Below are positions 7,234 to 29,422 of a stretch of 30,724 bases of DNA, piece by piece. This DNA is from a virus, in the IMG/VR virus record IMGVR_UViG_3300035670_000934, positions 1 to 30,724 of that record. One strand, 5' to 3'. The notes under the pieces were generated by a model that searched no databases, was not told where the DNA came from, and saw only the letters and a program-made list of their open reading frames with translations. Each line of letters starts with the position of its first letter. The first letter of the stretch is position 1. The position numbers and the translations under genes were made by a program.

Positions 7234-7448
7234 GTTCAGTCCTCGCAAAACAGGCCGGCGTGACAGGCCGCCGGCGTCAACGTCATCGATGGAGCGTTCT
7301 GGCTTGACTCCCAGTTTGCCTTCCGCCCTGTCGCGGCTTACGTTGGTCGGGAATCGCTCAACCCCAGCGTGGCACACCCATCAGCACTCGCTCCATCTCG
7401 CCGGCCCGGAACGAATCCATGTCGGCCGACTATTCACAGGTAGGGTAT
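7234..7448. other. Non-coding gap in early operon
   Basis: This 215 nt stretch holds no convincing gene on either strand. The only open frames are under 25 codons or out-of-frame extensions of the winged-helix gene. A GGAGGTG falls at the end of the HNH gene but is followed only by an 18-codon GTG frame. No clear promoter or hairpin was seen. Confidence 0.4.
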
Positions 7449-7910
7449 TCACCTCCAAGTTGCGGGGGCCACTCCGCAATTCACTGAGCCCGTGACGTCG
7501 TCACTGGCCAAATACTCCTCGATACTCCGTTCTCGCCGCTGATTGTTGTGTGCTCGACACTCGATCATCCCGTTGGCCACGGTGAGATCCGCCCCAGCAC
7601 ACCGCGGAACGACGTGACCGCCTTCCACTTCATCGCAGCACGGTCCTTTGCCGCGATGCCGCCAGAAACAACCGTAGCCGTGGGCCGCGGCAATCTCCGC
7701 CTTCGTGCGCGCTGTTGCCTGCTTCCGCCAGGTCACGCACATCTCGATCACGTCCGACGTGGCCCACGGGAAGAACACGTCGTCGAACAACCGCGTGTAT
7801 TCCTCACGGACCTGCCTCGCGCGAGCCATCCGCGCGTGGTCGCTGATCGGATCGCCCTTCGGTTTCAGGCTGTTGATGGCGACCAGTAGCTTCAGCTCGT
7901 CGAATCGCAT
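7449..7910 (-). CDS. HNH-type endonuclease
   Basis: The protein is 153 aa from ATG 7910. An alternative in-frame ATG lies at 7829, and neither start has a good SD. The C-terminal half holds the nuclease signature: Cys90 and Cys91 in GPCCDEVEG, then GGHVVPRCAG, NGMIECRAHNNQRR. The His of GGH, the Asn of ANG and the His of CRAHN match the H-N-H order, and the Cys residues can hold a structural zinc. Phage HNH proteins may be homing nucleases or packaging partners of terminase. Here the gene is in the early operon, so a DNA-processing or homing role fits better. It overlaps the upstream small zinc-ribbon frame by 107 nt. Confidence 0.65.
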   Translation of the reverse strand: MRFDELKLLVAINSLKPKGDPISDHARMARARQVREEYTRLFDDVFFPWATSDVIEMCVTWRKQATARTKAEIAAAHGYGCFWRHRGKGPCCDEVEGGHVVPRCAGADLTVANGMIECRAHNNQRRERSIEEYLASDDVTGSVNCGVAPATWR

Positions 7911-8025
7911 GGTGGTTGATCCACGGAGGTTTTCGTCGCTCGAACTTCAGTAACCCGCCACACCGATGGCACCGGTTGGGTGCCTGGCCGGCGGTGAAGA
8001 ACTTCAAAGTGCAGCGGGTGCACAT
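7804..8025 (-). CDS. Putative small zinc-ribbon protein
   Basis: A 73 aa frame starts at ATG 8025, inside the last 22 nt of the methyltransferase gene. Cys2, Cys5, Cys19 and Cys22 form a textbook zinc ribbon (MCTRC ... RCHRCGG) in the first 25 residues, with a basic stretch after it. The second half overlaps the HNH gene and reads as low-complexity out-of-frame sequence. The N-terminal ribbon is unlikely to arise by chance, but no SD is visible. If the HNH gene starts at its internal ATG 7829 instead, the overlap almost vanishes. Confidence 0.4.
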   Translation of the reverse strand: MCTRCTLKFFTAGQAPNRCHRCGGLLKFERRKPPWINHHAIRRAEATGRHQQPETEGRSDQRPRADGSREAGP

Positions 8026-9431
8026 GGCGTAACGCCAGCCAGTCGGACCGTTGCCAGCTCCCAAAATCGCTCTCCTATCTCGATCCCAGTGAATCGCCGA
8101 TGTAGCTCGAGGGCCGCGTGCCCGGTGCTCGCACTTCCGCAGAACGGATCGACGACCAGGTCCCCCGGCTCCGACGCGCACGCTACGATCGCCCGCGTGA
8201 TGGCCAAGGGGATCTGCGTCGGGAAGTCCGGGATCCGCTCGGCGGCGTTGTCCACCAGGCGGGGAATCGTCCACACATCGTCCCAGAGCTTGCCGTCCGG
8301 ATCCGCGCGCTGATCGTTGTATTTGGCCTGGCGGTCCGACGGGCGCCGGATGTATCGGGACTCGGCATTGAACACGAATCGCTTCGGGTCGACCACGTAG
8401 TAGAAAATGTGCCGCGAACAGCGGTTGAAGTTGTTCACGCAGTTGATGCCGAAGGTCTCGTACCACTTGATCCAGGCACGGCGGTGGAGCCCGGCTTCAT
8501 TGAGCATGAGCGCGAAGTGTTCCGCCCACTCGTCGTTGATGATCACCCACAGGCTGCCGTCATCGGACAGGGCGCCAGCACACAGGTTGATCCACTGTTT
8601 GCACCAGCGGAGGTACTCGTCCTCGTCTAAGTCGTCTTCGATGCCGTCGTCGCCGTAGTCCAGCCCGATGTTGTAGGGGGGATCGGCCACGATGAGACGC
8701 GCGCCATGGATCTGCGGCAGTTCCTTCAGGCAGTCGCCCAGGGCGATGTGCCACTTGGGCTTCTCGATCTTGTCAGCGACCTCGGCCGCCTTCTTCCGCA
8801 AGGCGGTTTTCTTTTCCTCACGCTTGACGGCGCGGAATGCCGGGTCCACCTTCCCGGTCTTGTTCATCTGCTCTATGGCTTGAACGTTTCCCGAGTCGAC
8901 GACGGCCTTGGCCTTCTCGTAGCTCCGTGGCTTCATGCCCACGGTCGAGGCGACCTGGTCACGTGTGCGATTGGTCTCGTCCCGCTTAGCCTTGGGGCAA
9001 TTTGCCCCTTGCTTCGATTCACCGCGCCGTGTCTCTCCAGACTTCATCCCACCTTTTGCCGCGGCCTTCTTCTTCGCCTCCTTGTTCATGGCGGCGATAG
9101 CGCCCTCGATCCGTTGGCCCATCCTGACCGCCTCTTCCGGTGTGAAGTCTTTGCGACAGGTGTTCTCGTCATTTTCTGCCTGGGCATGCTTCAGTAATGT
9201 GTCGACCGAGACGGCCGTGAAGGTATCGATCTGTTCCCACCCGAGCTGCTTGCATGCCTCGAGTCGGCGGCGCCCGGCGATTAGCTTCATGCCGGAGTCG
9301 ATAACGACCGGCTGGAGCAGGCCGACCTCGCGGATGCTCGCGGCCAGTGCGTTGATGTCGCCGAGGTCTTTCCGAACTCGCTCGCCGCAGTCGATTTTGT
9401 CAATTTCGACGATGTCACGAATGATCGGCAT
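8004..9431 (-). CDS. ParB-domain DNA methyltransferase fusion
   Basis: The protein is 475 aa. ATG 9431 was preferred over the in-frame GTG 9437 because GAAGGAG sits 8 nt before the ATG. Residues 1-95 are a ParB/sulfiredoxin-like N-terminal domain with LIAGRRRLEACKQLGW at 50-65. A basic linker follows (115-220). The methyltransferase domain begins near 226: motif IV DPPYN at 250-254 and, near the C-terminus, the AdoMet site VVDPFCGSASTGHAAL. The order IV before I is that of beta-class amino-methyltransferases. It should methylate adenine N6 or cytosine N4 in phage or host DNA, with the ParB part perhaps giving site choice. No cognate restriction enzyme is adjacent, so it is probably an orphan that protects phage DNA or regulates genes. 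Confidence 0.85.
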   Translation of the reverse strand: MPIIRDIVEIDKIDCGERVRKDLGDINALAASIREVGLLQPVVIDSGMKLIAGRRRLEACKQLGWEQIDTFTAVSVDTLLKHAQAENDENTCRKDFTPEEAVRMGQRIEGAIAAMNKEAKKKAAAKGGMKSGETRRGESKQGANCPKAKRDETNRTRDQVASTVGMKPRSYEKAKAVVDSGNVQAIEQMNKTGKVDPAFRAVKREEKKTALRKKAAEVADKIEKPKWHIALGDCLKELPQIHGARLIVADPPYNIGLDYGDDGIEDDLDEDEYLRWCKQWINLCAGALSDDGSLWVIINDEWAEHFALMLNEAGLHRRAWIKWYETFGINCVNNFNRCSRHIFYYVVDPKRFVFNAESRYIRRPSDRQAKYNDQRADPDGKLWDDVWTIPRLVDNAAERIPDFPTQIPLAITRAIVACASEPGDLVVDPFCGSASTGHAALELHRRFTGIEIGERFWELATVRLAGVTPCAPAAL

Positions 9432-9534
9432 GGCCACGCTCCTTCATCCACCACCCATGCACCGCCGCGGTGGCCGCGAAGGCGCCCACGATCGACGCAC
9501 CCACTACTAACCCGAGAATGAACGCCCACTCCAT
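9415..9534 (-). CDS. 39-residue membrane peptide
   Basis: A short gene from ATG 9534 to TGA at 9415-9417. The SD AAGGAG overlaps the CsrA stop codon directly, at correct spacing. Residues 3-25 form a single membrane segment rich in Gly, Ala and Val, followed by Trp-Trp and a charged tail (MKERGHADHS). It overlaps the methyltransferase start by 17 nt, so translation of the two is probably coupled. No function can be assigned. Small phage membrane peptides include exclusion and lysis-control proteins, but nothing here is specific. Confidence 0.55.
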   Translation of the reverse strand: MEWAFILGLVVGASIVGAFAATAAVHGWWMKERGHADHS

Positions 9535-11942: not shown

Positions 11943-12431
11943 ATGCGTTCGGATCCGTTGCGGGCAGGGCGAGGAGACCTGCTCGAGTTTGAGTACCCCG
12001 AACGGAATCAGATCGGCGTTCGCGTTGTCTGGCGGCGCCGCACCATCTTGGTCGAGTCCGTCCACGACATGGCGGTCACCGCGATCGATCCCCGCGCCGT
12101 GCAGCTGCGGCCGTTGATCCGCCGCGGCCGGCACCTGGTTATCGGCTACGACCTCGAAGCCGGCCAGATGCGACGGTTCTACCGCGAGGCCATGCGGCAC
12201 GTGCGCAAGACGACCTGGCTGCAGCTGGCGTTGTTCGATCCTTGCGAGGAAGCACCGCGACTCCGCCGACCGCATGGACCGTTTGCCCCGACCAAGAAGG
12301 ATCGCTTGTTCCTGACCGACGTGATCCGCCACTACAACCGCATCACGGCCAGGCGTGGTGACATCTGGCTGAACCTCGGTGTGTTTCCTTGGGAGCCTGG
12401 CGATGAGCATTCGCGTCCTCCTGCGGCGTAA
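11943..12431 (+). CDS. Basic protein of unknown function, possibly WYL-like
   Basis: The protein is 162 aa. ATG 11943 is preferred over GTG 11934 because AGGTGAG lies directly before it at good spacing. Residues about 45-85 (HDMAVTAIDPRAVQLRPLIR, then GRHLVIGYDLEAGQMRRFYREAM) resemble a strand-turn pattern of WYL or related ligand-sensing domains. This is a weak resemblance. Otherwise the protein is Arg-rich, with LQLALFDP near 103. It overlaps the integrase start by 29 nt, so the two are co-translated. A directionality or regulatory partner of integrase is plausible. Confidence 0.5.
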   Translation: MRSDPLRAGRGDLLEFEYPERNQIGVRVVWRRRTILVESVHDMAVTAIDPRAVQLRPLIRRGRHLVIGYDLEAGQMRRFYREAMRHVRKTTWLQLALFDPCEEAPRLRRPHGPFAPTKKDRLFLTDVIRHYNRITARRGDIWLNLGVFPWEPGDEHSRPPAA

Positions 12432-13521
12432 ACCGGACCGCGACAACTACCAGATGTACTACGTCGATCAGCTTACCGGAGACGACGTGACCAAGTCGTC
12501 CGGCACGAGCGACGTCCGGAAGGCTGAGCGTGAGGCTGCGAAGTGGGAGGCCGAGCTCGAGGAGTACGGGGCAGTCAGCCAGGCGATGTCGTGGGAACAG
12601 TTCCGTGTGTACTACGAGGACACGCACCTGGCCACGAAGTCACCCAAGACCAGGAGCGTGGTGAACACCTCGCTCAACTGGTTCGAGAAGTCGATCGGCA
12701 AACCGAAACGCGTGGACATGATCGACTCAATGGTGATCGCGCGCGTGGTCACCGACTGGCGGCGGCGGAAGATCAAAGAGACGACGATCGCCGCCTACCT
12801 GCGAAGCCTGCGGGCCGTTCTGAACTGGGCTCACAAGATGCGGCTGATCCGGGAGCGGCCGGTGTTCGCGATGCCGGGAGGATCGTCACGGTTCATGCGC
12901 GGCCGCCCGATCAACACCAAGGAGTTCCGGCAATTGCTCCGCGCGTGCCGCCTGGAACGACCAGCCAACTGGCGGCAGTGGGTCCGGTTCTTCCGCGGCT
13001 TGTGGCTATCCGGCCTGCGGCTCGAAGAAGCGGTCAAGCTGTCGTGGACCGACCCGCCGCTACGTATCGACCTGGACGGCGGAAGGTACCCCCGGCTGGT
13101 GATTCACCACTACGGCCAGAAGTCACGCCGCGACGAGATCTCGCCGCTCGCTCCGGACTTCGCCACCTGGTTGCGCAGGACGCCGCCAGACGAGCGCACC
13201 GGCTTGGTATTGCCATTGATGTCGGCGTACCGGAAGAACTGCAGGCTGAAGAATTCCGCGAAGATCGGATCGTACCTGTGCGCGATCGGTGAGCGGTCCG
13301 GAATCGTCGTCAACGACGACGGGAAGTTCGTGAGCGCCCACGATCTGCGGCGATCGTTCGGGACCAGGTGGGCCGCGAAGGTGAAACCTCTCACGCTCAA
13401 GCGGCTGATGCGGCACGCGTCGATCGACACGACGCTGCGATACTATGTGGACCAAGACGCCGACGACGTGGCAGAGGAACTGTGGCTCAAAGACCTGGAG
13501 TACAAGGGCAGAAGTGACTAG
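12403..13521 (+). CDS. int: Tyrosine site-specific recombinase (phage integrase)
   Basis: The protein is 372 aa from ATG 12403, with GGGAG about 7 nt upstream; an extension to 12379 lies in the preceding gene. Residues 1-55 resemble the arm-binding N-terminal domain, and about 62-160 the SAM-like core-binding domain (WEQFRVYYEDTHL, AYLRSLRAVLNWA). The catalytic domain follows. Arg206 is in WLSGLRLEEAVKLSW, Lys240 in GQKSRR, His313 and Arg316 in SAHDLRRSFGTRW, His338 in RLMRHASIDTTLRYY, and the nucleophile is Tyr347 or Tyr348. All expected residues are present, so it should be active. Integrase makes and reverses the strand exchange between attP and attB. The repeat-rich sequence after its stop is the likely attP. 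Confidence 0.92.
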   Translation: MSIRVLLRRKPDRDNYQMYYVDQLTGDDVTKSSGTSDVRKAEREAAKWEAELEEYGAVSQAMSWEQFRVYYEDTHLATKSPKTRSVVNTSLNWFEKSIGKPKRVDMIDSMVIARVVTDWRRRKIKETTIAAYLRSLRAVLNWAHKMRLIRERPVFAMPGGSSRFMRGRPINTKEFRQLLRACRLERPANWRQWVRFFRGLWLSGLRLEEAVKLSWTDPPLRIDLDGGRYPRLVIHHYGQKSRRDEISPLAPDFATWLRRTPPDERTGLVLPLMSAYRKNCRLKNSAKIGSYLCAIGERSGIVVNDDGKFVSAHDLRRSFGTRWAAKVKPLTLKRLMRHASIDTTLRYYVDQDADDVAEELWLKDLEYKGRSD

Positions 13522-13772: not shown

Positions 13773-13967
13773 AGCATGACCGCAAGCTAACCGTGCATCC
13801 ATTATATACTGGCCCGCTGACGGCAACTCAAGTGGCGCGGAGGTGATATATTGGCGGCACCGCAGTTGCAACACCGGCCCCGGGGAGGTCAACCCGGCTG
13901 GCGCGAGCCAGATGACGGCGGCCGTCGATCCGGGCCGGGCGGCCTTTCGCACCAGTGGAGGCAATCA

Positions 13968-14945
13968 ATGAAACTGAATGTGTTTGTCGTTTGCACGGTG
14001 CTTTCTGTATCCGTCGCTTCCAATGCTGGAGAACCGAGAACATGGACGTCGAAGGATGGTCAGTTCACGCTCGAAGCCGAACTAATCGGTTTTGGAGCCA
14101 AAGGCGTTAAGCTCAAGAAGAAGGATGGCAGCATCGTCAATGTCCTACCAAATGACCTGTCTGAGCAGGATAGAAAGTTCGCCAGAACTGAGTTCAAGAA
14201 AAACAGAGACCGACCGTCTTTCGGGTTCACGCACGTGAACTTGAACAAGTTCAAGACGGCTGTCAAGGACAAGGACTTAACGCTTCCGTCCAGCCGCATC
14301 GGGGTCGTTGTCGTGGAAGTGATCGAGAACTCGCCAGCGTCGATCGCTGGTCTTCAGACGGCCGACATTATCACACACATAAATGACCAACCTGTTACCG
14401 ACGTTGATCGCTTCACAGACATCGCGATAACGCTCGAGGTCGGGCAAAATTGCGAGATCAAATATTGCAGGCCAAAAGAAGACGGAAAGAAGGTCACATG
14501 GCCATCTTCGACATGCACGGTAACGCTTGGAGCTGCTTCAGAACTGGAGAAGTCCATCGAGGATCGCAAGTTGGCAGAAGCCAAGAAGTGCCCGCTCGAA
14601 ATCACGTCTGGAAATATCGTGGACAATATCATCGGAGTTCCGGATCTCGCCATCGAGCTGACGAACGTCTCGTCTTATGACGTTGTGGCGTATGTTGTTG
14701 AGGCCGAATGCTTCAATTCATTCGACGATCCAGTTAGGCGCCCAGGATCTAACAACATATTCCGAGGCATTGGCCAATCAACGATCGAGCGCCGCACATC
14801 TGATGCAGCCAAATGGCAGTTGAGCCTTCAGGATACCACGACGAGGGCAGTCGTCCGCGTCGTGCGAGTCAAACTCGCCAACGGCGATGAGTGGAACGAA
14901 GATCCGGACAATAAGGTGAGCGTGACAGTTCGAGCGGAGAAGTGA
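13968..14945 (+). CDS. Secreted SHD1 + PDZ protein (planctomycete type)
   Basis: The protein is 325 aa from ATG 13968 with GGAGG 7 nt upstream. Residues 1-20 are a signal peptide (MKLNVFVVCTVLSVSVASNA). Residues 22-70 (RTWTSKDGQFTLEAELIGF, LKKKDGSIVNVLPNDLSEQD) are an SHD1 domain, very common in planctomycete exported proteins. Residues about 100-190 form a PDZ domain with IENSPASIAGLQTADIITHI and a following VTDVDRFTDIAI helix. The last 115 residues are beta-rich. An in-frame TTG at 13851 has a perfect GGAGGTGAT before it, but using it would bury the signal peptide. The gene stands alone on the plus strand between integrase and the late operon, so it is probably lysogenic-conversion cargo taken from a planctomycete host. 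The substrate is unknown. Confidence 0.8.
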   Translation: MKLNVFVVCTVLSVSVASNAGEPRTWTSKDGQFTLEAELIGFGAKGVKLKKKDGSIVNVLPNDLSEQDRKFARTEFKKNRDRPSFGFTHVNLNKFKTAVKDKDLTLPSSRIGVVVVEVIENSPASIAGLQTADIITHINDQPVTDVDRFTDIAITLEVGQNCEIKYCRPKEDGKKVTWPSSTCTVTLGAASELEKSIEDRKLAEAKKCPLEITSGNIVDNIIGVPDLAIELTNVSSYDVVAYVVEAECFNSFDDPVRRPGSNNIFRGIGQSTIERRTSDAAKWQLSLQDTTTRAVVRVVRVKLANGDEWNEDPDNKVSVTVRAEK

Positions 14946-22743: not shown

Positions 22744-23115
22744 TCACGCTACTTTCTTCGTGTGGATCACGAGGAGAAGACCGTCGCTGTCGAGCGGGTC
22801 AAACTCCCTTTTCTCTCCCAGTGGCATCACTTCGAAAGTACAGGCCACTCCGGCAATCGTCTCCGCGATCTGGTCTCCTGCCCGCGGTACGATCACGGAT
22901 CCGGAAAGCACCAGGTCGGCGGCATGCACCAGGTAGTCGCGACTCACCACCGAGGTGCTGAACCCTTCGGCATCGACGACGTCGTATTGCTGCATGGTCG
23001 CCGTGGCCGTGATACTGGCGGAATTGGCACCTCGGGTGTAGGTGGCCGACACACCCGCATGGTCCTTGAGTTGTCCACCGAGCCAGGCGGCGCCATCTTG
23101 CAGGATGTTCGTCAC
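22744..23115 (-). CDS. Head-tail connector protein (gpFII-like)
   Basis: The protein is 123 aa from GTG 23115, which overlaps the stop of the radical SAM gene as GTGA, so it is translationally coupled to that gene. Residues 1-25 are helical (MTNILQDGAAWLGGQL). The rest is strand-rich, with VVDAEGFSTSVVSRDYLVHA, VPRAGDQIAET and a final FDPLDSDGLLLVIHT. The layout fits the small beta-barrel connectors that join head to tail in lambda-like phages. Confidence 0.65.
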   Translation of the reverse strand: MTNILQDGAAWLGGQLKDHAGVSATYTRGANSASITATATMQQYDVVDAEGFSTSVVSRDYLVHAADLVLSGSVIVPRAGDQIAETIAGVACTFEVMPLGEKREFDPLDSDGLLLVIHTKKVA

Positions 23116-24695
23116 GTCACCACCTCCGCCTGTTTCTCCAGCGTGGCACGGTACCGTCTGGCTCGCTCCACGATCCGCTCGTCGTGTTGCTGGTACTTGT
23201 CCCAGCGATGCGAGCAGTGTTGGCAGACTTTTGGAGCCTGGTCCGTCATTTTCTTCCCGACAATCGCCGGCAGCTGCTCACGCCAGACGCGGGCCAGCTC
23301 GGCGAAGTCTGTGGTGAAGACGTTTCCTAGGCTGCCCTGTCCCTGCCAGTCGTAGCAGCACAGGTGGTGATTGCCATGGTTGTCCAGGATGAACTCGACA
23401 AACGGACGGAGGCACGGCTGTTGGCGATCGGCAGGTTCGAGTTGCACCAACCGATCGTCGAGCTGAGCGTCCTCGCAGTATCTGGCGTTGATACGTTTAG
23501 CTGCCAGCCGATCAACCCCGCGTTTGCTCTGCTCGTTGTAGCCGGAGATCACGATCTGCTCAAACTGGCGGTATTGCTCGCATTCCTCGGGAATCAGCAT
23601 CCCGTTCGTCCAGAGAATGAACCTGGCTTGCGGAACCTGGTCCTTGATCCTGGCCATCAGGCCGAACATGCGATCTGCCTGCAGCAACGGCTCGTTGTAG
23701 TAGATCCAGCCAATCAGGCCGTTGAATCCCAGATCCTGATACGCGCGCACAGCGCAACCCACGATCGTGTCATCATCCAGTTCGCGGGTCGTGTCGAGCC
23801 GGCCGTACCGCTCCGGGTGCAGATTCGGACACTTATGGTGCACGTGCCCCAGGTTGCACTTGCTCCCCAACTCAAACTCAAGCATCTGCACGATGGCCAA
23901 TGGTTTTGCGTCGCGCTCCAACCGCCAACGTGACGCGGTCGCTTCGTCCCCATCGAGGTTGGATCCAGGATCGTGCCAGTTTGGATAGCCGCGGCTGCCC
24001 TCGTAGTGAGTCAATCGCACGCGGCTCGTGATCCAGGTGTTCGACCTACAGCCTCGCTCCCAGAGTTCACGCGAGAGCAGCCAGTCCTCCGATTCTCTTT
24101 GATGCACCCAGGCCCCGTCGCTGCCGCGAATCGCTCGCTCCGGAAAGCGGAAGATCGTCTTGAGGGAACCATCCTCATTGGTCTCGTGCCAGATCGGATG
24201 GCGCAGGTCGGCCACCCAGCAGCCGGTGTTGTGCAGCAGCGGGCGATCAGGATAGCCGGCCATGACGTTGTTGAACGTCGGTGGTAAGTCTCTCAAGAGC
24301 TCCCGCACAGTGAATCGCCGGTAAGCACCACGCCATGGGTTGGCTGGATCCCCGACGCCGCTACTCGTTGTCCCCGACTCATCCTTGAGCCGGTTGTGGG
24401 CTGACACAAGAACTGCCTGGCGGTTGTCCATTTCATCGAGCAGGATATCCAGCCAATATTGTTCCGGATCCGGGCTGGTGTCGCCGTGGAGCATTGCGAA
24501 GTGACTGACTTTGCCATTTTCGTAGAGGTTGATCGCGTCAAGCCAGCAGAGATTGAAGTCCTCAGCTCCAGAGAAGCCGATGCCTCCATTGAAGGGATGC
24601 ACAATGTGTCTGGCTGTCGAGTTGATCACGCCGGTTGTGGTTCCCCAACAAAAGTGCTTCCCTGGAATCGCGAGGTAAACGTGATAGGTGTTCAT
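23112..24695 (-). CDS. Glycosyltransferase-like + radical SAM/SPASM fusion protein
   Basis: The protein is 527 aa. ATG 24695 was chosen; the longer frame to 24899 lies in the neighbour. Residues 1-245 look like a glycosyltransferase A-type fold, with HFAMLHGDTSPD (65-76, acidic metal site near Asp72), the YWLDILLDEMD helix and a Trp/Arg-rich second half. Residues 270-425 are a radical SAM barrel: LEFELGSKCNLGHVHHKCP at 272-290, IYYNEPLL at 331-338, LWTNGMLIP at 361-369. Residues 428-494 look like a SPASM end: Cys428, Cys446, Cys447, then Cys491-x2-Cys494. His284 and His287 replace the usual Cys of CX3CX2C, with Cys289 nearby. It lies between the decoration protein and the connector and is coupled to the connector start. 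It may modify a peptide or virion protein. Confidence 0.7.
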   Translation of the reverse strand: MNTYHVYLAIPGKHFCWGTTTGVINSTARHIVHPFNGGIGFSGAEDFNLCWLDAINLYENGKVSHFAMLHGDTSPDPEQYWLDILLDEMDNRQAVLVSAHNRLKDESGTTSSGVGDPANPWRGAYRRFTVRELLRDLPPTFNNVMAGYPDRPLLHNTGCWVADLRHPIWHETNEDGSLKTIFRFPERAIRGSDGAWVHQRESEDWLLSRELWERGCRSNTWITSRVRLTHYEGSRGYPNWHDPGSNLDGDEATASRWRLERDAKPLAIVQMLEFELGSKCNLGHVHHKCPNLHPERYGRLDTTRELDDDTIVGCAVRAYQDLGFNGLIGWIYYNEPLLQADRMFGLMARIKDQVPQARFILWTNGMLIPEECEQYRQFEQIVISGYNEQSKRGVDRLAAKRINARYCEDAQLDDRLVQLEPADRQQPCLRPFVEFILDNHGNHHLCCYDWQGQGSLGNVFTTDFAELARVWREQLPAIVGKKMTDQAPKVCQHCSHRWDKYQQHDERIVERARRYRATLEKQAEVVT

Positions 24696-24786: not shown

Positions 24787-25470
24787 TCAAGCCAGGTCGA
24801 TAGCCGCGGTTGTCCCGACCCAGGAGTTGTATCCTTCGGAGATAAACGTATCGATGGTGTTGACTGCCGCCACGACCGCGTTATTGGCGCCAGCACCATT
24901 GATCTGTTTGCCGACCGGAGGATAGATCTTCAGCGTCTTGTCGGTGTTCTGGTTGACCACGACACACTTCATGCCTGGCACACAGCTGGGCAGGATGACG
25001 CCCTTCGAGTTGTCGGCATTCGCCACAACCGTCGTGCCGTATTCCAGTTGTGTGGCGGTCGCGATGTTACCACCGGCCGCGTCAGCCAGATGCGTTTCGA
25101 CGAGATCCGCCGGCTGCTTGTTGAGTCGCGTCCGGACATAGCTCGCCGTATTGGCCGCGGCCGCCACGGCGATGCCGGCAAATGTGCCCACGGCGTTGGT
25201 CGCGGCGCCACTGGCGGCGGTGCCAGTGACTGGGGTTCCGCCTCCGTCCCAGAACACCGGTTTCCCGACCGTGAAGACGTCGCTGGATTTCGGCAGGTCA
25301 AAGACCCCTTCAACGTCCAGCGTCCCAGCCGTATTGGCTGCGATGTCTCCCGAACAAACACCAATCAGACCGGGGGCGAATTCAACCACATCGCCGGCGG
25401 TCTTAGCACTCGTCGGCGTGTAGTCAACGACATCTCCGACAGCTCGCTTGATGGCTGCAGTTTGCGCCAT
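24787..25470 (-). CDS. DUF2190-like capsid decoration (cement) protein
   Basis: The protein is 227 aa from ATG 25470 with AAAGGA upstream. Residues 8-115 follow the DUF2190 pattern: VGDVVDYTPTSAKTAGDVVE, a short GVCSGDIAANTAGTLDVEGV, then VFTVGKPVFWD and GTFAGIAVAAA with a closing RTRLN. The remaining 110 residues are a beta-rich extension (VVNQNTDKTLKIYPPVGKQI) that resembles surface or glycan-binding domains. The expected place is beside the capsid gene, which holds here. It would stabilise or decorate the head. Confidence 0.65.
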   Translation of the reverse strand: MAQTAAIKRAVGDVVDYTPTSAKTAGDVVEFAPGLIGVCSGDIAANTAGTLDVEGVFDLPKSSDVFTVGKPVFWDGGGTPVTGTAASGAATNAVGTFAGIAVAAAANTASYVRTRLNKQPADLVETHLADAAGGNIATATQLEYGTTVVANADNSKGVILPSCVPGMKCVVVNQNTDKTLKIYPPVGKQINGAGANNAVVAAVNTIDTFISEGYNSWVGTTAAIDLA

Positions 25471-25823: not shown

Positions 25824-27929
25824 TTAGGCCTCGCCCTTGCTCTTGATTCCGCAAAGGTACTCGGCCTGGTCGCAGCCGAAGTCGTGGTAACCGCGGAATT
25901 GGATACCGAGCGTATTGAAGTCGGCGTCCGAGCTCTCGACGGTCGGCGTCTGCTGCCCGTTCAGGAAGCTGACCACCATTGCCGGCAGGATCCGCGGACT
26001 GCGGAGCAGATACCAGATCTTGGCACCGTAGCCGGTGAACGCACTGTCGCTGAGCCAAGCACTCTTGACCGGTCGATACAGCCCGGCGAAGACGTTGGCA
26101 TTTGGGACGGATACGGAGGTGGCGGCGCCTCCGGTGTTGACGTTACTGGACTGGTAGATCTGCTGGGCGATCCAGAACAGTTCTGGCGGTACCAGCAGGA
26201 TTTCCGGGCGCCCACCGAGTCGAACAGCCTCGCCGGCGACAGCGGTTGGCTTCAGCTTGTCGAAGGCCGCAATGCCTTCCTGCAAGCCCACACCGTCCAG
26301 GCCGAGGTTCGCCGTCGAGGTCGCGATGTAGTTGACTCGCGCGGCGGTGAAGAACGCCGAGTTGTTCATGAACGCCGCCCAGAAGATGTTGTTGAACTTC
26401 GTGGCAGCACCGGCACCGAGTCGCGTCCGCAGATCGTCGAAGGCACCCATGTCGTCATTGATGATGTCCTGACGATCCAGGCCCAACATCTTGGCATAGG
26501 TCTTCGCCTGTCGCGTGTAGGACTCCTCGCCCAGCGTCCCATGCTTGATCTCGCCGCCCTTGGGGAGTGCCTCGTACTCGAGGGCGTCCGTAAGCCGATA
26601 GCTGGTCATCGACTTGAAGTCGGGAACGGACTTGACCTGGGAAATCTCCCGCCAGGTCTGGTCCGATTCCTCGTACCCGGCCAGCAATTCCTTGCTCGCC
26701 ACGTTCGCCAGGATCCCCGGCAGGCTGATCGTGGAACCCGAGGCCTGCATGTGACGAGTGGCCCGTTCCGGGAACGCATATTCCAACACACTCCGCAGAT
26801 TGCCGATGGTGATCGACTCGCCACGCCCAGCCTGGTAGCCATTCTGAATGGCGGCCATCATCAACATTTGTTTGATGCCATAGTGTCGCATGCCGGCTTT
26901 GTCCACAGCGTCGAGTACCTGCTCCGGATAGTGCTTCTCGACGTTGGGCAGACTGGCGGCCAGGCACAGAGCGGCCTCAAACACACGGGCGTCAGGGGCG
27001 GGCTTGCTGCGCGTCACGAAAACCCCAGCCTGTGTCCGAGTGTCCCGCATCATTTCCAACTCGAAGCGGTCTGGAGTCTCGCCACTGTCAACAGCCGCCT
27101 GGGCTCGCTCCTCGATGTGATCGATGAGCTGCGGAAACTGCTTCATAAACGACGTTGAGACGGTGCTTATCTGCTTCCGGCGTTCCGCCTCCAATCGGTG
27201 GGCATTGGCGAGATTGGAAATGTCTCCATCCCCCACCGTGACTTTCGGGGCGGGCTTCTGCTGGGCACTGAACTGGGCCTGCAGAATCCCCTTCTGCTTG
27301 TCGGTGATCGTTTCCGGGTCGAACTCGTTGGCGATCAGCCATTTCGAGAATTCATCCATCTGAGGTTCTCCTGCGGCTGATGCCGCGATTGCGACGGAAT
27401 TGCCTTCGTCTGCTCCGTTGCTGACGAAAGCCAGACCGATCAGTTGACTCTTGCGAGCGATATAGGCAGGCCCGGTGATGGTCTGCCCGTTTACGATCTC
27501 CACCTTGCCGGCGGCCAGCAGGCGAAGGTTGCGCAGTTCGGCCTCCAGGGAGACTTGCCATTGGAAGCCGTTGGAGGCACTCAACGCGACCTCGTCGCGA
27601 TACTGTGTCGCCGCGGACAGCACGCCGGATACGGCGAGCGTTTTCTTGTCATTGACGACATCGGTCGCGTGTCCAACGCGATGCTTCTTGTCGTGGTCCA
27701 GGTTGGCGACCACGTTCCGGACTGTGGACATTCCGGAGAGATCGATCACGATGGGCGCGTCCAATGGAGGCTGCACCGTGTAGGACGGAACCTTGCCTCC
27801 GCTGTAGGCGGTAGCGGCAAATGTTGGAGCCTGCGGCTGTCCGTCGTCGCCTTTCGAGGCTGTCACGGTCAACTCGCCACCCAGGATCTGCACGCCCTTG
27901 AAGTACGCTTTCACACAATGGACTCTCAT
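25824..27929 (-). CDS. Prohead protease fused to Mu gpT-like major capsid protein
   Basis: The protein is 701 aa from ATG 27929, overlapping the portal stop (ATGA). Residues 1-185 resemble a HK97-type prohead protease. Candidate catalytic residues are His79 in NLDHD and Ser127 in WQVSLEA, with the expected order and spacing. Residues 187-330 are helical and likely act as scaffold (DEFSKWLIANEFDPET, ANAHRLEAERRKQ). The capsid domain (about 340-700) matches Mu gpT-like heads: FKSMTSYRLTDALEYEALPK, YAKMLGLDRQDIINDDMGAF, FNNIFWAAFMNN, LLVPPELFWIAQQIY and a late IWYLLRSPRILPAMVVSFLNG. Protease and scaffold would be cut away during head maturation. Separate genes are more usual for these activities. 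Confidence 0.85.
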   Translation of the reverse strand: MRVHCVKAYFKGVQILGGELTVTASKGDDGQPQAPTFAATAYSGGKVPSYTVQPPLDAPIVIDLSGMSTVRNVVANLDHDKKHRVGHATDVVNDKKTLAVSGVLSAATQYRDEVALSASNGFQWQVSLEAELRNLRLLAAGKVEIVNGQTITGPAYIARKSQLIGLAFVSNGADEGNSVAIAASAAGEPQMDEFSKWLIANEFDPETITDKQKGILQAQFSAQQKPAPKVTVGDGDISNLANAHRLEAERRKQISTVSTSFMKQFPQLIDHIEERAQAAVDSGETPDRFELEMMRDTRTQAGVFVTRSKPAPDARVFEAALCLAASLPNVEKHYPEQVLDAVDKAGMRHYGIKQMLMMAAIQNGYQAGRGESITIGNLRSVLEYAFPERATRHMQASGSTISLPGILANVASKELLAGYEESDQTWREISQVKSVPDFKSMTSYRLTDALEYEALPKGGEIKHGTLGEESYTRQAKTYAKMLGLDRQDIINDDMGAFDDLRTRLGAGAATKFNNIFWAAFMNNSAFFTAARVNYIATSTANLGLDGVGLQEGIAAFDKLKPTAVAGEAVRLGGRPEILLVPPELFWIAQQIYQSSNVNTGGAATSVSVPNANVFAGLYRPVKSAWLSDSAFTGYGAKIWYLLRSPRILPAMVVSFLNGQQTPTVESSDADFNTLGIQFRGYHDFGCDQAEYLCGIKSKGEA

Positions 27930-29422
27930 GCCACGGGCTCCTCGATTTCGGTGTCAATTTCGGCCGCGTCTTGGGGTGCCGTAGGTGCTGGTGGAGGCGG
28001 CGGAGCGGCCGCGGGGTAATGTGTCTTCAGCAGGATTTCCCGCATCTCATCCACAGTGACTCCGTAGTCTTCCGCCATGGCCTGCAACTCGTCCTCGTAG
28101 TCCATACCGAGTTCCGAGTAGGCCCGTCGCAGTGACTTCATGCCATTGCGTAGAGCCATATCAGTAGCTCGGCCTTCTCCCTCACTGTCGATAACGGGAT
28201 GAGCCGGCCAGTCCCATTGATGAGCCGGCGGGATGTCGCGGCGGTCGACCATAATCGTCCACTCGCGGAACCAGGCGGCAAACAGTGGATCGAGCACCAG
28301 GTCATTGCAGTCGACTCGCTCGACGTTGATCTCTGAGCGGTAGCACAGCGTATCGAGCTTTCCGGAAGCGAAGCTGTAGGTCGATGAATCGCAAGCCGCC
28401 GCGTTGTAGGGCATGCTGATCGGGCGCGCCTGTTCGCTGACCAGCGCTCGGTTGAAATCGTTGTACTGGGCGTTGGGGTGTTCGCCTCGCATCTGCGTAA
28501 CGTCCCAGCCGGTTGGCAGGGCCATGGCCATGCGACGTTGAATCTCAAAACTCGTGCCGGCGATGAGCGACTCGGGTTCCTCGTCACTGGCCGGAGACAG
28601 CTTGGAATGGATCAGTGCCGAGATACTGGCAGCCGTCTCGGCAGATGCCACGGTTGCCTCCCGGAACCTGCGCCCCATGGCACCGGTCGGGAGGGTCGGT
28701 GTCAATTCAGGTATTGAGCGGTGCTGCCCTGGCCGCTCGAGCTTGAACCAGTGCAGCATTTGGTCGGCAGGAACCTGAATCGGTTGCTGGTACAGATAGA
28801 GCCACGATGACCCTGGGTGGTACGGCAGAACATCGTACCAGATCGGATTATTCCACTCGTCGAACCGGATGCCGTCGATGTACCCTTTTTCCGCATAGGG
28901 TAGATAAGGTGTCTGACATTGCTCAGTTTCGATCAGCACCATGTCAAGCGTAACGGTGTGGCTGATGTTCGGATTGGTAACCAGTACCGCGAACGCCTCA
29001 CCGTCCTGAGTCCGGGCGTGGCTCATGCACCAGAGCTTGCGGCGGAGCTGCATGGCCTGGGACCACGCATACCACTCCCGCTCAACTAACTGATTGAACG
29101 CAGTGCTGCCGGTGAGCATCCGCAGGGTCGGCCCGACACCCACAATCATGTTTGTGTGCGTGCGAACGATCCCGGCGTAATAGCCGTTTGATCCATGCTC
29201 GTATCGGCTGTTGCGAACCAGTTTCTGCCGGACTTCCCGGCTATTCGCACTATCAGCATCGAACGCGTCTGCGTGCAGCCAGTGGCCGTCCAGGTCACTG
29301 CCAGAGCGTGCCGCGTCGTAACTGGCCCGGACGATATGTGCATCCACTTCACGTCGTCGAACACCGTTATTCGGCTTGGCGACGATCGGCTCTTTCGTCA
29401 GCGGGTGGATGCGACTGGTCAT
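27926..29422 (-). CDS. Portal protein, lambda gpB type
   Basis: The protein is 498 aa from ATG 29422, overlapping the gpW-like stop (ATGA). Family features are YYAGIVRTHTNMIVGVGPTL (81-100), a Trp-rich helix after it, VPADQMLHWFKLERPGQHR (218-236) and IPELTPTLPTGAMG. Further on are FEIQRRMAMALPTGWDV, YNDFNRALVSEQARPISMPY and DCNDLVLDPLFAAWFREW. The C-terminus has a Pro-rich linker (AAAPPPPPAPTAPQ) and an acidic end. The portal forms the dodecameric ring at the packaging vertex, works with the terminase and connects to the tail. Confidence 0.9.
   Translation of the reverse strand: MTSRIHPLTKEPIVAKPNNGVRRREVDAHIVRASYDAARSGSDLDGHWLHADAFDADSANSREVRQKLVRNSRYEHGSNGYYAGIVRTHTNMIVGVGPTLRMLTGSTAFNQLVEREWYAWSQAMQLRRKLWCMSHARTQDGEAFAVLVTNPNISHTVTLDMVLIETEQCQTPYLPYAEKGYIDGIRFDEWNNPIWYDVLPYHPGSSWLYLYQQPIQVPADQMLHWFKLERPGQHRSIPELTPTLPTGAMGRRFREATVASAETAASISALIHSKLSPASDEEPESLIAGTSFEIQRRMAMALPTGWDVTQMRGEHPNAQYNDFNRALVSEQARPISMPYNAAACDSSTYSFASGKLDTLCYRSEINVERVDCNDLVLDPLFAAWFREWTIMVDRRDIPPAHQWDWPAHPVIDSEGEGRATDMALRNGMKSLRRAYSELGMDYEDELQAMAEDYGVTVDEMREILLKTHYPAAAPPPPPAPTAPQDAAEIDTEIEEPVA

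Follow-up and report, generated by a model that had tools for sequence, protein, structure and literature searches.

A phage head-operon protein joining a glycosyltransferase domain to a radical-SAM-like domain with a Cys/His/Cys motif

The fusion gene

The window, i.e. the whole 30.7 kb stretch analysed here (positions 1 to 30,724 of the IMG/VR virus record IMGVR_UViG_3300035670_000934), harbours on its minus strand a gene, P0002, that joins a GT-A glycosyltransferase (GT) domain to a barrel of the radical S-adenosylmethionine (SAM) type and a twitch domain. An earlier note on this DNA had described such a fusion in the head/tail operon, between the genes for a decoration protein and the connector, and both coordinates and profiles agree with this. 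In the barrel, a histidine stands in place of the central cluster cysteine, and the domains sharing this histidine form a deep, almost exclusively viral clade.

The gene runs from an ATG at 24695 to a TGA at 23114-23112, encodes 527 aa, and its stop overlaps the GTG start of the connector gene at 23115 as GTGA, just as the earlier note had read it. The frame stays open upstream to 24899 (595 aa); this longer start was ruled out because it overlaps the decoration gene and because relatives, which include five further full-length viral fusions and that of L060, start at or near residue 1. The features of the gene are:

23112..24695, minus strand: GT-A/radical-SAM-like-twitch fusion gene P0002 (open reading frame with conserved start; full-length viral fusions)
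23946..24695, minus strand: N-terminal GT-A glycosyltransferase domain, residues 1-250 (Foldseek; standalone homologs)
24480..24488, minus strand: HxD motif, residues 70-72, probable metal/nucleotide-sugar site (H70 and D72 in 42/42 GT rows)
24084..24089, minus strand: ED of the SEDW motif, residues 203-204, probable GT catalytic acid pair (42/42 GT rows)
23466..23894, minus strand: radical-SAM-type barrel, residues 268-410 (BtrN profile match, model pLDDT 94.9, Foldseek)
23829..23858, minus strand: non-canonical cluster motif CNLGHVHHKC, with C280, H286 and C289 as CX5HX2C (C, H and C invariant in relatives)
23688..23696, minus strand: NEP motif, residues 334-336, counterpart of the SAM-binding GGEP (family and BtrN alignments)
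23601..23609, minus strand: TNG motif, residues 363-365 (family alignment; aligned with TNG of BtrN)
23196..23414, minus strand: twitch domain, residues 428-500, with cysteines C428, C446, C491 and C494 (Pfam SPASM; BtrN alignment)

A barrel and twitch domain related to BtrN

The C-terminal half (residues 268-500) consists of a radical-SAM-type barrel plus a twitch domain. A family profile of 26 relatives matches BtrN, the butirosin 2-deoxy-scyllo-inosamine dehydrogenase (PDB 4m7s/4m7t), along the entire length of barrel and twitch (E 3.5e-17), and Foldseek with an AlphaFold2 model of the fusion (61 related rows, pLDDT 94.9, pTM 0.89) returned BtrN on top (E 3e-10), followed by GT-A enzymes and by further radical SAM enzymes, namely DesII, anSME and MoaA. 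An earlier model from 6 sequences had been discarded (pLDDT 51.9). Radical SAM enzymes acting on sugar nucleotides, DesII among them (PDB 8hzv), match the structure more weakly than BtrN; they carry the canonical motif and another auxiliary region than the fusion. Pfam gave SPASM as the sole match on the protein (residues 428-494, E 1e-4, above cut-off), while Radical_SAM had zero matches in the whole virus record, and the family as such also escapes this model.

Both the NEP and the TNG motif named in the earlier note are present and conserved in the family alignment: YYNEP of the fusion aligns with YGEP of BtrN, its E and P being invariant, and TNG and an arginine align as well. NEP and CC-x-D were part of the scan patterns, so their conservation is partly biased. 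The auxiliary-cluster cysteines, arranged as C428-x12-G-x4-C446, C491 and C494, are kept in 25-26 of 26 rows and all align with the four cysteines that hold the auxiliary cluster of BtrN (PMC9012708, PMC6231123). The seven-cysteine SPASM motif defined in PMC6231123 (CX9-15GX4C-C-X2-C-X5-C-X3-C-C) is incomplete, with CX12GX4C present and the three further cysteines, beyond C494, absent. The SPASM-like set of the earlier note is thus backed by the Pfam match, but it is a four-cysteine twitch set, not a full SPASM.

Profile and structure searches agree in placing residues 270-494 within the radical SAM homology group. A homologous partial (beta/alpha)6 barrel and a GGEP-like motif are present and the CX3CX2C motif is absent; the domain therefore belongs to the group by descent and fold and fails its motif definition, for which reason we call it radical-SAM-like. 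The homology behind the barrel assigned in the earlier note holds. That note had not noticed the non-canonical cluster motif and had assumed a working cluster, whereas the central cysteine is a histidine throughout the clade.

The Cys/His/Cys motif

At the end of strand 1 the fusion reads LEFELGSKCNLGHVHHKCPN and BtrN MIEVEVNSQCNRTCWYCPN. The first and last cysteines match those of BtrN, whereas a histidine replaces the middle one in a loop two residues longer, giving CX5HX2C as opposed to the CX3CX2C of BtrN (Cys16/20/23, PMC9012708). In the relatives the loop takes the form C-x5-H-x2-C or C-x5-H-x3-C, and C-x3-H-x2-C in L007. C, H and C are invariant in 26/26 aligned members and in 8 found later, i.e. 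in all 34, including members with as little as about 30 % identity. These relatives came from scans that relied on the NEP and CC-x-D regions or on a GT motif and left out the cluster loop; therefore, the histidine was not selected for by the search. No CX3CX2C occurs elsewhere in the 527-aa protein.

Among cellular cousins, taken from 343 Planctomycetota genomes and Brachyspira, CX3CX2C was found in 18/18 with a readable motif. In a tree of 48 rows, the 34 His-type sequences form a single group, set apart by a branch whose support is 100/100 and whose stem measures 2.4 changes per site. This split is one between viral sequences gathered from viral seeds and cousins from one phylum plus Brachyspira, such that canonical viral intermediates could have been missed. 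Chance conservation of the histidine was rejected, given scans built on other motifs and one deep group in the tree. The non-canonical radical SAM proteins of the HcgA/HmdA type, which carry CX5CX2C, have the same loop spacing as the fusion, with a cysteine rather than a histidine in the centre. A search of the open-licence PMC literature found no paper on CX5HX2C, CX3HX2C, CxxxHxxC or CX4HX2C.

The family is essentially viral. Two scans of about 85,000 genomes gave four loci, of which three are family members in contigs of metagenome-assembled genomes (MAGs) and one is canonical; the genome scan with alignment A1 had no match. One MAG copy (L083, Pirellulales) adjoins a phage integrase and another (L084) holds the same gene as the viral contig L022. 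Homologs occurring only outside phages, an outcome the earlier note had considered, were thus not what was found. In cultured phage records, neither P0002 nor four relatives (three by the radical-SAM-like domain, one by the GT) had a match.

A fragment in a Lentisphaerae MAG (L091:1411-1944; the genome also holds L085) contains CPMWKRHPRC with the C-x5-H-x2-C spacing and is probably a decayed copy.

The glycosyltransferase half and its partners

The earlier note had read residues 1-245 as GT-A-like, and Foldseek gives residues 1-250 a GT-A fold, with matches to collagen hydroxylysine galactosyltransferases and the like (COLGALT1, LH3 and mimivirus R699) at probability 1.00. These GT-A enzymes share only about 8-10 % identity with the fusion GT, which has HxD rather than DxD. 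The conservation of HxD is partly biased, as the search pattern contained HFAMLH and covered part of this column. Viral Foldseek matches of the fusion model are mostly GT-like proteins from phages and giant viruses, and standalone homologs of the N-terminal GT were found at about 50 viral loci; no Pfam GT family scored above cut-off for this window-type GT.

Across the 34 non-redundant His-type members, a GT is fused (14) or adjacent (15) in 29, a much tighter association than the earlier note could have recognised. The window-type order with the GT in front is shared by the window, L001-L005 and L060, and is reversed in L073, where the same GT family lies behind the radical-SAM-like domain. 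Another GT family is fused C-terminally in L063, L064, L066, L070, L072 and L116, with two copies in L070 and L072, both of which exceed the Pfam Glyco_transf_7C cut-off. Among the adjacent cases, the next gene is a GT of either fusion-partner family in six (L007, L067, L069, L071, L077 and L120), and a neighbour exceeds a Pfam GT cut-off in nine more, i.e. Glyco_tranf_2_4/GT92-like in L062, L074, L078, L136, L137 and L140, GT17 in L080, GT25 in L135 and a GT2 fused to a methyltransferase in L082. The background in the rest of the same contigs, counted with the two home-made GT profiles only, is 3/455 GT genes.

Each of the two double-GT proteins (L070:9944-12541 and L072:9629-12574) is encoded downstream of tail genes by a single open reading frame that combines a His-type domain with two galactosyltransferase-like GT domains; in L070 a third GT lies next door. 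In L132, a caspase-like (Peptidase_C14) gene (7288-8109) lies less than 0.5 kb from the His-type gene.

A swap slot beside the decoration gene

By profile, the gene order in the window is terL, portal, protease/major head, decoration, fusion gene and head-tail joining, the mapped neighbours being:

22744..23115, minus strand: head-tail joining (connector) gene (Pfam Phage_H_T_join_3, E 7.5e-30)
24787..25470, minus strand: head decoration protein gene, directly upstream of the fusion gene and candidate substrate (phrog_122, E 2.6e-13; relatives keep the order)
25824..27929, minus strand: head maturation protease/major head protein fusion (phrog_4523, E 5.9e-56)
27926..29422, minus strand: portal protein gene (phrog_21, E 1.8e-41)

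In related phages, the slot between the decoration and head-tail joining genes holds the same GT alone, without the radical-SAM-like domain (e.g. L008, L014 and L025), or the GT fused to a methyltransferase, as in L010 (Methyltransf_24) and L018 (Methyltransf_23; no decoration gene recognised). The loci with either variant are L008, L010, L014, L017, L018, L025 and L027. The slot is a module-swap site for virion-modifying enzymes, and since the GT stays constant while its partner varies, the partner looks like a tailoring module. This pattern fits a scheme in which the GT attaches a glycan that subsequently undergoes methylation or a radical-based alteration. The link between the fusion and a phage structural module, which the earlier note had drawn, is supported; the modification of a virion protein that it proposed from the same location is still an inference.

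The decoration proteins adjoining the fusions of L001 (6453-7625) and L002 (6350-7405) contain long Gly-rich repeats (GGAxxxxGGAG), not present in the shorter decoration protein of the window, which are possible glycan acceptors.

Proposed function

Going by architecture, homology, conservation and genomic context, we infer, with a probability of about 0.5, that the fusion is a bifunctional virion-glycosylation enzyme. The GT would move a sugar from a nucleotide sugar onto a head protein, with the neighbouring decoration or capsid protein as the first candidate. SAM would be bound by the radical-SAM-like domain at a [4Fe-4S] cluster with two cysteine ligands and one histidine ligand, and the radical formed upon SAM cleavage would serve to oxidise, deoxygenate or epimerise the sugar, or else the acceptor residue, in the manner of BtrN (PMC9012708) and DesII, which act on sugar-like substrates. 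The electron would pass to the twitch cluster, and the virion would end up with a glycan coat of diversified chemistry. BtrN itself is a stand-alone bacterial enzyme without a GT in its chain, unlike the fusion. Virion glycosylation has been reported for the mycobacteriophages Che8 and Rita (cited in PMC11256854), with phage-encoded GTs and glycans on capsid proteins; a radical SAM-like partner is not described in that source.

Several points weigh against this interpretation. Radical SAM enzymes are normally inactivated by changes to a cysteine of the cluster, and the domain could thus be catalytically different or dead. Cluster assembly, SAM binding and SAM cleavage at C280/H286/C289 are predictions, as are the acceptor and the sugar. 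No GT was identified directly next door in 5/34 members (L021, L081, L083, L132 and L139), the GT of L021 lying 2.7 kb downstream, and the scanned open reading frames of the window showed no gene of a sugar-nucleotide pathway. The substrate need not be a head protein everywhere, since some relatives are encoded on jumbo-like or other contigs and not within a head operon (e.g. L135).

The broken cysteine triad could also mean that radical chemistry has been lost, leaving a pseudo radical SAM fold that assists the GT, either as a scaffold with bound metal or as a module for substrate binding, with C/H/C binding zinc or a structural cluster. The constant pairing with GTs suits such a scaffold, and an NCBIfam pseudo-SAM/SPASM model is weakly matched by 3/26 members. 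However, conservation of NEP, TNG, the barrel's D-x-R and the four twitch cysteines extends down to about 30 % identity, which would be unexpected if SAM binding and electron transfer had been lost, and the invariant histidine aligns at the position of the middle cysteine, so that we regard this explanation as rather unlikely. Alternatively, the domain may modify a protein acceptor, such as a side chain that then receives the sugar, along the lines of a GT paired with a SPASM peptide maturase. Peptides are often the substrates of twitch/SPASM enzymes, and the collagen hydroxylysine GTs that the N-terminal half resembles act on a modified residue. We nevertheless consider it clearly unlikely, as the nearest solved relative, BtrN, is a small aminocyclitol dehydrogenase and the partners in sister genes are methyltransferases, i.e. 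tailoring of the glycan type. For the same reasons, maturation in the style of ribosomally synthesised and post-translationally modified peptides, to which the earlier note had pointed, finds no support: the partners are GTs and methyltransferases, residues 1-250 are a GT, and no RRE domain was matched by Pfam, no dedicated RRE search having been made. The earlier note had itself seen no obvious small precursor peptide beside the gene, where small open reading frames were not surveyed systematically.

Remodelling of host surface glycans instead of the virion, as in lysogenic conversion or a superinfection block, would suit a temperate phage, which the tyrosine integrase of the window (12379-13521) suggests this one may be, and one canonical cellular cousin adjoins GT2 genes. 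Yet the gene overlaps late head/tail genes and the slot is held across many phages, which fits expression during virion assembly rather than in lysogens and makes a host-directed role very unlikely. Returning to virion glycosylation, we tentatively suggest, at slightly less than an even chance, that the His-type clade is a virus-specific radical SAM class in which Cys/His/Cys builds the catalytic [4Fe-4S]-SAM centre and which tailors the sugars placed on virions by the partner GT. Histidine as a natural ligand in the radical SAM cluster would run counter to the rule by which the superfamily is defined: the three-cysteine motif both defines and finds these enzymes, and Pfam Radical_SAM misses this broad, old clade, in which fold, SAM-site residues and auxiliary-cluster cysteines are all retained. 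The clade raises the concrete question of whether a histidine can serve in the catalytic cluster and whether potential or chemistry change with it. The near-constant pairing with GTs of many families points to unexplored virion-glycan chemistry in the swap slot by the decoration gene.

Other features of the window

Around the fusion gene, no repeats beyond short, chance-like pairs were found. On the plus strand, 13851-14945 encodes a protein with SHD1 and PDZ domains; this protein and the Pirellulales MAG copy L083 jointly hint at a host among the Planctomycetota. On the minus strand, 8004-9437 encodes an N6/N4 DNA methylase fused to a ParB N-terminal domain.
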